From Leptolyngbya sp. FACHB-8 (GTDB lineage: Bacteria; Cyanobacteriota; Cyanobacteriia; Elainellales; Elainellaceae), in contig NZ_JACJOO010000050.1 of the NCBI RefSeq assembly GCF_014695575.1, positions 62,001-126,000 of the forward strand: a stretch of DNA of 64,000 nucleotides, written 5' to 3'. The translations under genes were made by a program, and so were the position numbers. The notes under the pieces are model-generated. The model ran no database searches and was not told where the DNA came from. It worked only from the letters and a program-made list of their open reading frames with translations. Shown here piece after piece: positions 10,667 through 44,554 of this stretch (positions are counted from its first letter, which is position 1; each line of letters begins with the position of its first letter).

Positions 10667-11092
10667 TTAGCGATAAATCCCGTTATTGATCCGGTCATCC
10701 CCTTCAACAAATGCGTTTTCGGGAGGGCTAACGGTAAATTTATCCAGATTGGCTTGCAGTACTTCCAATTGACGATCCGTCAGTCCGGGAATATCCAGAA
10801 CATCGTTCACGTCTTGATAAGGAGCATTCTTTAGAATCTGCTTGGCGATGGTGGGGTACAGCCCCGGATATTGCATGAATGCCCGCACGTTGGTGTTATT
10901 CAGGTCGATTTTTGCGCCGAATTCTGTTGCCAGCTTGTCATCGACAGCGTTACGAAACTCTAACGCCACCAGGGGAGATGAGATGGGCACGAGACGACTG
11001 AAAGGAGCGGCAATCGCCGACAGATCCCCTACCCAACCCCAGCTAGCCACTAGCACAGCCAGGGACAACAACAACCCTACAAATCGCTTCAT
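10667..11092 (-). CDS. psbU: Photosystem II 12-kDa extrinsic protein PsbU
   Basis: PsbU binds the lumenal face of cyanobacterial photosystem II and stabilises the Mn4CaO5 oxygen-evolving site. The 141-residue precursor has a lumen-targeting signal peptide ('[29 protein letters not shown]'). The mature region carries the family's '[27 protein letters not shown]' and the helix-hairpin-helix-like '[28 protein letters not shown]'. I set the start at ATG 11092, preceded by AAGGGA eight bases away, although the frame is open to 11164. It is monocistronic and flanked on both sides by family B elements in direct orientation. Confidence 0.95.
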
Positions 11093-11301
11093 TGGTTGAA
11101 TCCCTTCCGATTTCTCCGATTTCATGATTCCGATTGTCTTAGCCCAAGAGGCTAAATAAAACACAGCAAAAGCAAAAAAAGAGTATATGAACAGGGAGCG
11201 AAGCCGCTTTTATCCAATTCCAGACTCTACCTATAGAGACTACCATTACAAATGACCAAAAAGTGATGCCTATAGAGTTCATTTCCATCTGTTTGGATTA
11301 G

Positions 11302-12784: not shown

Positions 12785-13543
12785 TCAGGCAGCCATAGCC
12801 AGCAGAAGAAACAAACCATCAACCATAACCGTGCTAAGGATAGCGCCACTAAAAGCCCAATGGTGAAGCTGTTGCGATCGCAACGGCAATAAACCCACCA
12901 CCAACAGTAGACTGACGATCAGCACAGCGCTACCAACTCCCCAAGGAGTTTGCATCTGAGCCAGAGCCGCCTGAAAGATCGGTGGAGCTTGATCAGGAGT
13001 TACCTGCATCAATTGTCGCCAATAGGGAATCAAATTGACCAGGTAGAAATACAGATCTGTCAAAGCAGTCCCCAGTAGGGAACCCAAGTAAAACCAATGG
13101 CCTACAGGGGTCTGTATGCGTCGCATCCCAATCAGAGCAAAAGGTAGAGCGATCGCCTCAATGGGCAAGTGCAGCAGCGGCTCCCAACGAAACCACCCCC
13201 AGTAGATTGACCCCGCCAACCAGGTCCAGGCAAAACCATAAGTCAGGTCACCCAGTACCCAGGTATCCGGCTGCCGGGCAAGAGAACGCGCCATGATTAC
13301 CAGCACCCCCGTCAATAACAGACTGAGTAGTGGCACCAACCGTACAAGCGGAGCCTGAAAAAAGACGGGAACAGATACCAGAAACACGGCTACCCCCAAA
13401 ACACCCCACTTCCCAATACCGGAAAGGGAACCCATGGGAGCCTTGAGAGAAGCAGAAGTCAGGGAAGAAGCGGCTTCCTGACGCTCGGCCAGCGAGGGGG
13501 TAGACGACGAAATGGTAATCAATGGCTTAATTAATTGAAACAA
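12785..13543 (-). CDS. DUF3120-type integral membrane protein
   Basis: The 252-residue protein has a polar, Ser-rich N-terminus of ~40 residues followed by six or seven hydrophobic helices. These include 'GVLGVAVFLVSVPVFFQAPLVRL', 'LLSLLLTGVLVIMARSLARQ', 'LGDLTYGFAWTWLAGSIYWGWFRWEPL' and 'AVLIVSLLLVVGLLPL'. The Trp-rich 'WTWLAGSIYWGWFRWEP' with 'HLPIEAIALPFALIG' is the pattern I associate with DUF3120, a family of cyanobacteria and plastid-bearing plants with no assigned function. It is monocistronic. Assignment rests on recalled resemblance, so it is moderate. Confidence 0.65.
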   Translation of the reverse strand: MFQLIKPLITISSSTPSLAERQEAASSLTSASLKAPMGSLSGIGKWGVLGVAVFLVSVPVFFQAPLVRLVPLLSLLLTGVLVIMARSLARQPDTWVLGDLTYGFAWTWLAGSIYWGWFRWEPLLHLPIEAIALPFALIGMRRIQTPVGHWFYLGSLLGTALTDLYFYLVNLIPYWRQLMQVTPDQAPPIFQAALAQMQTPWGVGSAVLIVSLLLVVGLLPLRSQQLHHWAFSGAILSTVMVDGLFLLLAMAA

Positions 13544-13841
13544 TTTATCGCACTCATTTAGTTTACGTTATTTAACAAAAGATTGCATCCCAAAATGCAA
13601 TGCCAGGGGATGCTTCTAATAGCCTGCTGTGTCTTCGATTGTACGGACAATCCCCCGGGGGGCATATTTAGATATTCTTAAAGTGTCTAGAAACTAGCAA
13701 AGTTCAAAGCTTCAGTGCAGTGTCTAGAAGTTTTAGTTTGACTGAGCCCCCTCTGTAAGGAAAAGCTCACCCTCTCAGAAAACGCCTGAACCGTAATTGG
13801 ACAAGTGTCCGAAAACTTGCTGTAATTTACTACTCGTCCAA
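13544..13841. other. Spacer with no gene
   Basis: AT-rich promoter region of the DUF3120 gene. It contains two short direct repeats of GTGTCTAGAA (around 13684 and 13721) and nothing else I can support. Confidence 0.35.
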
Positions 13842-13903
13842 GAGGATGTGCCTAATGCTCTAGGTCCTGGTTAATCAGGACCTAGAGCATTAGGCACATC
13901 CTC
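13842..13903. repeat. Family C palindrome, copy 1 (perfect 28-bp arms)
   Basis: Arms 13842-13869 and 13876-13903 are perfectly complementary around GTTAAT. A diverged copy with the same arm sequence is at 26669-26727. It sits in a divergent spacer, so it is not positioned as a terminator. Confidence 0.8.
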
Positions 13904-13973
13904 GGTACTATTCTAAACATTTGAATGGGGCGCTTACCGTCTCATTCACACAGCCATCTCATGCTTGAAACAT

Positions 13974-14168
13974 GGGTACATCCCACTTTTGTAAGTGAAG
14001 CGGGCGAAGCCCGCTTCACTTACAAAACCTCAGTTCGGGTTAAGGGCTTTTTTGAGTGCCGCGCGAAGAGCGGCACTCAAAAAAGCCCATTATTGCGTGC
14101 GCGACGCGCACGCAATAATGGGCGGTTCGGCTTATCCCGAACTGACGTTACAAAAGTGGGATGTACCC
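13974..14168. repeat. Nested palindromic elements (one inserted inside another)
   Basis: Outer perfect 21-bp arms 13974-13994 and 14148-14168 enclose two things. First is a 19-bp-arm hairpin (13987-14005, 14009-14027; apex GAA, GCGAAGC). Second is a complete family A element (14026-14150) whose own shell GTTCGGGTTAAG/CTTATCCCGAAC holds two hairpins: 14044-14062 with 14070-14088, and 14085-14102 with 14106-14123. No coding capacity. Confidence 0.8.
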
Positions 14169-14370
14169 TGAGACATGACCCGCACACATCAAGAAGATAA
14201 CCGTAGAGCCTGCTGTGTTTTATGAGCTGAAGCATTAACTTTGTCAGCGCTTCAGCTCACAAAGTTCGATATTGGTACTTCCATAAAGTTGCCTCGGGAT
14301 ACCTGATAGAAGGGAAAAAGCATAGGGTAGACTCATTGAGACATTTCTAGCCAGGCTGAGAGGACTGCCC
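14169..14370. promoter_or_regulatory. Leader region of uppP with a hairpin
   Basis: Promoter/leader of uppP. GAGCTGAAGC (~14223) pairs with GCTTCAGCTC (~14251), giving a 10-bp stem. GAGAGG lies 8 bases before the GTG start. Confidence 0.35.
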
Positions 14371-15327
14371 GTGTCTGAGATGAGTTTTGGAGTCGCATTG
14401 GGAGCACTATTTAATCCAGTTATGGGTGGATTGCCCTTAACGGGGACGATCGCCACAGCTCCTACCGTAGATACCTCAGCCGCCGCTCCCATAAGTCTGT
14501 TTCAGGCTTTGGTTTTGGGCTTTGTGCAGGGAATGACGGAATTTTTACCTATTAGCAGCACTGCTCACCTTAAAGTGGTACCCGTAGCTCTAGGGTGGGG
14601 CGATCCAGGTGTGGCCTACACTGCCATTATTCAGTTGGGGAGTATTGCAGCAGTGCTGTGGTACTTCTGGAGTGACTTGAGCCAGATTGTGCGAGGGGCG
14701 ATCGCTTCTCTTGTTCGCCGCGACTTCCAGACCCAGGAATTCCGCATGGCCTTGGGCATTGCGTTAGGTACCATCCCGATCCTGTTTTTTGGGTTGCTGA
14801 TTAAAGTTCTCATTCCTGACTTTGACAACTCGCCTTTGCGATCGCTCTCCACCATTGCCATTGTTTCTATCCTCATGGCCCTACTGTTGGGGCTGGCGGA
14901 AAAGTTAGGACGCCGCAAGCGTGACTACGACGACCTCACCACCAGGGATGGAATACTGATGGGACTGGCTCAATCTCTAGCGCTGATTCCAGGGGTTTCG
15001 CGTTCCGGTTCGACCCTCACAGCCGGACTATTTATGGGAATGGAACGGGCCGCTGCCGCACGCTTCTCGTTCTTGCTGGGGATTCCGGCAATCACGCTGG
15101 CGGGACTAGTCGAGCTCAAAGACGTGCTGGAGACGGGCGTTAGCCAGAAGGAGTTGATGCCTCTAATCGTGGGCACTATTTCTGCGGCCATCTTTTCTTA
15201 TCTAGCGATCGCCGGTCTTTTACGCTATCTGAAAACCCGAAACACCTGGGTTTTTGTCTGGTATCGCCTCGCCTTTGGCGTAGCGATTTTAACCGCACTC
15301 GCCACTAACTTTCTTAAAAATGCTTGA
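14371..15327 (+). CDS. uppP: Undecaprenyl-diphosphate phosphatase (BacA/UppP)
   Basis: This integral membrane enzyme dephosphorylates undecaprenyl diphosphate to recycle the lipid carrier for peptidoglycan and other envelope glycans. The 318-residue protein shows both hallmark motifs: 'GFVQGMTEFLPISSTAHL' (the (E/Q)xxxE-type catalytic region) and 'LIPGVSRSGSTLTAGLFMGM' (PGxSRSGGT-like). Multiple helices surround them. An N-terminal ~40-residue extension precedes the first conserved helix. I start at GTG 14371, preceded by GAGAGG; ATG 14380 is the alternative. The radical-SAM gene begins 27 bp downstream, suggesting a two-gene transcript. Confidence 0.93.
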   Translation: MSEMSFGVALGALFNPVMGGLPLTGTIATAPTVDTSAAAPISLFQALVLGFVQGMTEFLPISSTAHLKVVPVALGWGDPGVAYTAIIQLGSIAAVLWYFWSDLSQIVRGAIASLVRRDFQTQEFRMALGIALGTIPILFFGLLIKVLIPDFDNSPLRSLSTIAIVSILMALLLGLAEKLGRRKRDYDDLTTRDGILMGLAQSLALIPGVSRSGSTLTAGLFMGMERAAAARFSFLLGIPAITLAGLVELKDVLETGVSQKELMPLIVGTISAAIFSYLAIAGLLRYLKTRNTWVFVWYRLAFGVAILTALATNFLKNA

Positions 15328-22922: not shown

Positions 22923-23003
22923 AACCTCAGTTCGGGATAAGCTGAAGTGCCCATTTTGGTGTGCGAAGCGCACTCAAAAACGTCCTTAACCCGAACTTAG
23001 GTT
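22923..23003. repeat. Family A element, internally deleted copy
   Basis: Shell AACCTCAGTTCGGGATAAG (22923-22941) and CTTAACCCGAACTTAGGTT (22985-23003). Inside, one hairpin keeps only its left arm and apex (CCCATTTTGGTGTGCGAAGCGCAC) and the other only its right end (TCAAAAACG), as if the segment between the two hairpins had been deleted. Confidence 0.7.
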
Positions 23004-26525: not shown

Positions 26526-26664
26526 AACGTCAGTTCGGGATAAGCCGAACCGCCCATTATTGCGTGCGCGACGCGCACGCAATAATGGGCTTTTTCGAGT
26601 GCCTGTTTTCGAGTGCTGCGCGTTGCGCGGCACTCGAAAACGCCCTTAATCCAAACTCAGGTTA
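26525..26664. repeat. Family A double-hairpin element (reverse orientation)
   Basis: Shell AACGTCAGTTCGGGATAAG and CTTAATCCAAACTCAGGTT. The hairpins GCCCATTATTGCGTGCGC/complement and CGTTTTCGAGTGC/complement occur in the opposite order from the copy at 14026-14150, which carries the same CCCATTATTGCGTGCGC arm. Confidence 0.8.
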
Positions 26665-26668
26665 TTAA

Positions 26669-26727
26669 AGATGTGCCTAATGCTCTATGGCCTGCCTAAG
26701 CAGGACGTAGAACATTAGGCACATCTT
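26669..26727. repeat. Family C palindrome, copy 2
   Basis: Same arm sequence as 13842-13903 (GATGTGCCTAATGCTCTA...) with loop CCTAAG and about three mispairs. It ends at the folB stop codon. Confidence 0.75.
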
Positions 26728-42632: not shown

Positions 42633-42755
42633 AACCTGAGTTCGGGTTAAGGGTGTTTCCGAGTACCGTGCGTTGCATGGCACTCGAAAAAGCTCATTTT
42701 GGCGTACGCTTTGCGCACGCCAAAATGAGCTTTTCAGCTTATCCCGAACTGAGGT
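42633..42755. repeat. Family A double-hairpin element
   Basis: Shell AACCTGAGTTCGGGTTAAG and CTTATCCCGAACTGAGGT. Hairpin 1 has degenerate arms (GTTTCCGAGTACC/...GGCACTCGAAAAAG). Hairpin 2 pairs AGCTCATTTTGGCGT with its complement around a TTT apex. It sits between murQ and the S2P operon. Confidence 0.75.
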
Positions 42756-44417: not shown

Positions 44418-44554
44418 CAGCAATTCTCATTTTGAAATCCAACCCGAAAATAGCCCGCCTTCGGCGGGCTATTTTCGGGTTGGATTTCAAAGCTGAGAGT
44501 TCGTGCCCTTCGGGCACGAACTCTCAGCTTTGAAACCCATACTGAGAATTGCTG
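44418..44554. repeat. Family H double-hairpin element with 29- and 20-bp perfect arms
   Basis: Shell AGCAATTCTCA (44419-44429) and complement (44543-44553). Hairpin 1: perfect 29-bp arms 44431-44459 and 44463-44491. Hairpin 2: perfect 20-bp arms 44489-44508 and 44512-44531. Both have a TTC apex, GAA on the other strand. There is no coding function. It lies in the 470-bp spacer between larE and the DUF3110 gene. Confidence 0.8.

Follow-up and report, generated by a model that had tools for sequence, protein, structure and literature searches.

Layout of the locus

We analysed a stretch of 64,000 nucleotides of Leptolyngbya sp. FACHB-8 (hereafter the window), taken from a 6.93-Mb draft genome of 95 contigs. 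It carries the PsbU gene at 10667-11164 and, further along, a composite of inverted repeats in the spacer between the genes for a DUF3120 protein and UppP (Table 1). The perfect 21-bp outer arms of the composite (13974-13994 and 14148-14168) lie exactly where the first-pass annotation had placed them. That annotation also described a separate hairpin with 19-bp arms that reuses the TTGTAA end of the outer arm; the hairpin is present (13987-14005 and 14009-14027), though as the tip of an older palindrome rather than as a unit of its own. As detailed below, the composite is a MITE (family A) inside another MITE (family B).

Table 1. Parts of the nested composite and its neighbouring genes, in window positions.
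Feature	Position	Strand	Remarks
Neighbour gene, DUF3120 protein	12785-13543	-	Context
Left target duplication of B	13966-13973		TGAAACAT; 7 of 8 bases match 14169-14176
Left part of B	13974-14026	+	End GGGTACATCCCACTTTTG; holds the whole hairpin tip and runs through the first TACAAA; based on the arms, the restored palindrome and other copies
Target duplication of A, left copy	14021-14026		TACAAA; limits from 59 complete A copies
Inner MITE A (family A)	14027-14148	+	122 bp; ends ACCTCAGTTCGGG.../...CCCGAACTGACGT, IS982-like
Inner hairpin 1 of A	14044-14088		19-bp perfect arms, 7-nt loop
Inner hairpin 2 of A	14085-14123		19-bp perfect arms, 1-nt loop; terminator-like on the - strand
Target duplication of A, right copy	14149-14154		TACAAA; limits from 59 complete A copies
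Right part of B	14155-14168	+	AGTGGGATGTACCC
Right target duplication of B	14169-14176		TGAGACAT
Neighbour gene uppP/bacA	14371-15327	+	Start 194 bases from the right duplication of B

Folded as single-stranded DNA, positions 13966-14176 reach -91.2 kcal/mol, versus -30.9 ± 3.5 kcal/mol in 200 shuffles (z -17.2). A fold this stable, set in a palindrome-rich window and including a terminator-like stem on the minus strand, could belong to a non-mobile structural RNA or DNA element (a terminator, a REP-like sequence or a regulatory stem-loop) that merely looks composite. The stem does not exceed expectation, however, with one such structure on the minus strand of 13540-14400 and 0.8 ± 1.0 in shuffled sequences, and no Rfam family matched 13500-14500 at its gathering score (the 11 matches below that score were all to microRNA families). 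Duplications at both levels of the composite and dispersed copies of its parts are, on the other hand, marks of transposition, and we consider a purely structural origin very improbable. The composite may have acquired a structural role after insertion.

Several kinds of palindrome occur elsewhere in the window: over positions 1-64000, there are 40 pairs of inverted repeats that are 17 nt or longer and lie within 220 bp. A 62-bp palindrome at 13842-13903 with 31-bp arms (97% complementary, no loop) is neither A nor B and has a similar counterpart at 26668-26727.

Limits and target duplication of the inner element

The first-pass annotation had recognised a complete family A element between the outer arms, and the other copies in the genome allowed us to set its limits. 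A search of the source genome with A gave 122 matches, partial and hairpin self-matches counted, and its 15-base terminus, when one mismatch was tolerated, occurred 188+179 times versus 0+3 times for the reversed pattern. We collected a sample of 66 copies, mainly from places listed in these searches, placed the termini three bases outside the TCAG...CTGA words, and counted 59 after dropping seven copies whose termini were not 115-117 bp apart. Perfect direct repeats flank 54 of the 59 complete copies (37 of 6 bp, 16 of 7 bp and one of 13 bp) and the other five lack an acceptable duplication; when the right flanks were shuffled 200 times, a repeat of at least 5 bp was seen in 1.66 copies on average and never in more than 6. 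Among the 53 repeats of 6-7 bp, T is the first base in 50 and A the last in 51.

The proposed check for a target duplication was thus borne out at the locus itself, where TACAAA stands at both junctions of A. Junction sequence of the TTAC/GTTA type, which had been pointed out earlier, is present as well and consists of this duplication plus the terminal A/T of A. The longest match across both junctions reaches TTACAAAA because the adjoining bases chance to equal the terminal bases of A, and the outer arms and the hairpin have TTACAAAA in common because the insertion of A duplicated its target. At 122 bp, A has neither a transposase gene nor room for one.

The window contains three other pairs of A-type termini (42637-42752, 22927-22999 and 26530-26659), one complete, one short, and one decayed and longer. 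Elsewhere in the genome, the copy with the 13-bp direct repeat (L004, C6:32995-33119) is flanked by TATTTTAGCCCTA. Two further copies, L105 and L003, have a common flank with GGCGGGCTATTTTC (compare window positions 44431-44552), apparently a further repeat family; in L105, A lies inside this repeat with a duplication of TATTTTC.

The outer element and its uninterrupted copies

When A and one copy of the junction word are removed, the joined flanks form a perfect 67-bp hairpin with 32-bp arms and a 3-nt loop. Searching the source genome with this restored B returned 82 matches (both strands of the palindrome counted, window included), and the closest uninterrupted copy among the matches listed (C7:131374-131440) equals it at 65 of 67 positions. 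Both results agree with the earlier suggestion that A inserted into an older palindrome. We sampled the listed matches, allowing at most three mismatches in the ends and at most 300 bp including any insert; 55 were collected, and 53 were used after removal of a sub-match of 39 bp and a further entry of 51 bp. Fifty of these 53 sampled copies are uninterrupted. The 53 are non-coding, mostly palindrome, and span 36-90 bp when inserts are left out; the commonest variant, with 25 of the 55 collected, is 89 bp long, being extended on one side by an additional segment.

Of the 53 copies, 46 lie between direct repeats of 8-10 bp that differ at no more than one position (26 perfect, one of 10 bp); with shuffled flanks, such repeats appeared in about 1% of cases for a length of 8 bp and in 0.6% for 9 bp. 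An acceptable duplication is absent in seven; for the closest uninterrupted copy (L009) and the host of a second composite (L132), both among these seven, 6 of 8 positions agree. The window copy is among those with repeats, and B is thus itself a mobile element.

One B copy (L134, C49:21400-21466) carries a second copy of B's own end inside its hairpin tip, as if by conversion or abortive self-insertion. In another genome (G049), many of the listed B-type ends fall about 200 bp or less from contig starts, which suggests longer multi-copy elements that break the assembly.

Related loci, plasmids and viral contigs

A search based on uppP yielded 65 related loci. In the nearest relative, LEGE 07170 (L197), the DUF3120 gene and uppP stand in the same order, with about 1.04 kb between the aligned protein ends; the spacer there gave no match to B and a weak 18-bp match to A (E 0.09). 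It shares just 25 bp with that of the window, too little to place an empty site precisely. The pre-insertion state that the first-pass annotation proposed to look for is therefore represented by the uninterrupted paralogues in the source genome, and not by an orthologous empty site in relatives. The congener G001 gave no match to the composite and a plasmid collection none to A or B. Among viral contigs, A-type ends occur in eight stretches, in one case (L268) directly behind an IS982 transposase gene; the B end had no match there.

Further composites with the same target

Three of the 53 B copies are interrupted, all at one target. In the second composite (C43:174779-174994; L132/L168), the host is a B of the 89-bp type. 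Its insert belongs to a different A-type subfamily, points the other way and, once reversed, shows 83% identity with the A of the window; it too stands between two copies of TACAAA. The third (C65:133987-134173; L170) is also a B of the 89-bp type; its insert, a 92-bp element of a third family with other copies or fragments outside B (L018, L026, L112, L120 and L164), occupies the same place in B, within 1 bp depending on how its end is set. The two copies of the outer duplication of B agree at 7 of 8 positions in the window, at all 8 in L170 and at 6 in L132. From the side of A, 2 of 57 complete copies with sufficient flanks lie inside B. We also searched 36 genomes for the A/B junction pattern with at most three mismatches; the 36+40 loose matches in the source genome, versus 3+0 for the reversed pattern, are not a census of A in B.

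The same composite thus does not recur as one conserved unit at many loci, the finding that would have spoken for a single larger element: the two other composites have different inner elements, one of them reversed. A composite that moves as a unit would share its layout with the other two, as is seen, and the outer duplication of B does enclose the whole, which an ISKra4 transposase could in principle move. Yet neither the inner elements (the window A, its 83% identical reversed relative and the separate 92-bp family) nor the host variants (67 versus 88-89 bp without the insert) are the same, and A is also present by itself, flanked by a duplication of its own, at dozens of other places, so that we give this explanation hardly any weight. 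Equally hard to credit is a single ancestral insertion of A in B that was copied to three loci and whose inner parts diverged later. The equal target in all three is what it would predict, but the inner elements are of opposite orientation or different families while the halves of the host B stayed alike, and identity between the A of the window and A copies outside B reaches 97%.

The composite is, almost certainly, a nested pair of non-autonomous DNA transposons, in which B arrived first and A later entered B. B would have inserted between the DUF3120 gene and uppP with duplication of 8 bp, presumably mobilised in trans by a transposase of the ISKra4 family. A would then have entered one arm of the B hairpin at TACAAA, duplicating 6 bp, and an IS982-family transposase probably supplied the activity in trans. 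We infer both this route and the lack of any host function.

The reverse nesting also occurs. Among 52 B copies with 50-bp flanks, one (L160) clearly sits within an A-type element, where it is flanked by a 9-bp duplication free of mismatches, and removing it leaves A-type sequence over 122 columns at 72% identity. A second case, at an A-type end, may be L161. Nesting in both directions indicates that the activity periods of the two families overlapped or alternated. In L156 and L026, B adjoins A-type sequence, and in L088 an A lies inside another A-type element.

Choice of the landing site

A preference matrix built from 35 six-base duplications of A, none of them from the cases in B, gives its highest score within both the 67-bp and the 89-bp B to TACAAA and its mirror TTTGTA, so base preference predicts the landing place. 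We consider it somewhat more probable than the alternatives that the recurrent site is due to the base preference of A (for T-A...T-A 6-mers) alone, with no role for the hairpin. Against this, TACAAA scores 3.5 bits, below the mean of 5.6 for the sites used by A (about 1% of background 6-mers reach 3.5), and the only two of 59 A copies that use TACAAA are both in B, which holds a small share of such sites. By a rough, post hoc estimate, the 50 sampled uninterrupted B copies account for 1.7% of the TACAAA sites in the genome, or 7.7% should only one fifth of the genome be open to insertion. Such an excess, in two to three events viewed post hoc, suggests that the hairpin, or else B as such, plays a part; participation of the hairpin in site choice is possible.

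More generally, the targets of A were associated with foldability at p 0.028 with the two cases in B and 0.058 without them, coding DNA being among the controls. Any overall tendency of A to choose targets that can fold is thus weak and not established. A wider scenario, which we put forward as speculative and rather unlikely, is that MITEs of the IS982 type are guided to cruciform-forming stems and that hairpin MITEs of the ISKra4 type serve as harmless landing pads; since B also enters A, the two families would then form nested stacks that spare genes from insertion.

Transposase families behind A and B

Ends of the A type flank transposases of the IS982 family (NF033520) in the congener G001 (L271, E 1.6e-77) and in G037 (L272, E 1.1e-72; L297, E 4.8e-72). 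These elements have direct repeats of TAGCTA (6 bp), AATACTA (7 bp) and TTAGGTA (7 bp), in that order; a fourth IS982 element (L275, in G020) has no clear direct repeat. The ends of A (ACCTCAGTTCGGGTTAAG.../...CTTATCCCGAACTGACGT) match the type of those of L297 (ACGTCAGTTCGGGATAAG.../...CTTAACCCGAACTGACGT). The available text of PMC7335449 gives the end pattern AC(N)6T(N)5TT for IS982; of that pattern, A has the AC, the T at position 9 and the T at position 15, and an A at position 16. With inverted repeats that start in 5'-AC, direct repeats of matching length and type, no room for a transposase and a high copy number, A has the properties of an IS982-derived MITE.

The B end, GGGTGCATCCCA (GGGTACATCCCA in the window), also terminates elements of 1.16-1.19 kb that encode transposases of the ISKra4 family (NF033572) and end in GGGTGCATCCCA.../...TGGGATGCACCC. 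Duplications were checked at 8 of 30 loci, from G004, G006 and G008, and perfect direct repeats were found in six of the eight (five of 8 bp, one of 9 bp), all in G008. There was no clear duplication at L352, L354, L317 and L319; L303 and L354 are one element of G006. Equal ends and direct repeats of 8-9 bp in both are consistent with B as an ISKra4-derived MITE. In the ISMich2 group, two overlapping frames encode the transposase and a -1 frameshift links them, according to the part of PMC3942029 that describes it; the elements with B-type ends have two overlapping frames in L303 and L319 and one continuous frame of 366 aa in L317.

The search of the source genome (G000) for parent elements gave a weak profile match to IS982 (E 8.4e-5), which has no pair of A-type ends, and no match to the ISKra4 profile NF033572. 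Seven PF01609 loci in the same genome have no convincing A- or B-type ends (isolated matches had up to 4-5 mismatches), and A-type ends are absent from its PF00872 locus (L270). MITEs usually have a parent transposase alongside them in the genome, but an old MITE can lack one. Both families look orphaned in their own genome, although a draft in 95 contigs could miss multi-copy elements.

Comparison with known systems

From sequence alone, the composite fixes the ends, the duplications and the relative order of two MITE families, and each family can be tied to a transposase family in a palindrome-rich cyanobacterial genome. Three independent insertions at one spot provide, in addition, a concrete test of whether DNA structure guides IS982-type insertion beyond base preference. 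Nezha is said to be a cyanobacterial MITE, reportedly described by Zhou and colleagues in 2008; as MITEs of cyanobacteria, A and B resemble it by description. An ISL3-type MITE of Microcystis is described in the accessible portion of PMC11448079.

A has the AC-ended inverted repeats and variable-length direct repeats that the available text of PMC7335449 gives for the IS982 family, in which ISNsp1 of Nostoc has repeats of 6 bp; it differs from the elements of this family in having no transposase gene. Its closest described counterpart is MITECca01, an IS982-derived MITE of Cardinium that, in the text of PMC9769881 at hand, is similarly short, transposase-less and provided with IS982-like ends. 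MITECca01 is about 240 bp and shares its genome with intact copies of the parent IS, whereas A is 122 bp, contains two inner hairpins and has no parent IS that we could find in its own genome. The word 'nested' is absent from the main text of that paper (PMC9769881).

B has the ends and the 8-9-bp duplications of related cyanobacterial ISKra4 elements and, unlike that family and its ISMich2 group as covered in the relevant part of PMC3942029, is short, non-coding and mostly palindrome. A search of the open-access literature for ISKra4 with 'miniature inverted-repeat' brought up no description of an ISKra4-type MITE in the text it returned. A further class, the REP/RAYT repeats, is recognised by a GTAG or CGTC end of a small palindrome (PMC3733652, in the section that sets out the criterion); the ends of A and B differ from both, and we rejected this assignment.

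Nested elements are known in general (PMC3852290, in its available text). The nearest parallel is the insertion of IS1111 into QMITE2, a palindromic MITE of Coxiella (reviewed in PMC10969869, in the part that deals with it), where a mobile element likewise lies in copies of a palindrome-carrying MITE. In that case, however, the incoming IS1111 is an IS and recognises a GTAG palindrome, whereas in the present composite one MITE enters the stem of a MITE from another family. The composite is thus a well-documented case of a known kind of event, A and B are new members of the MITEs, and the recurrent insertion site is its most interesting aspect.
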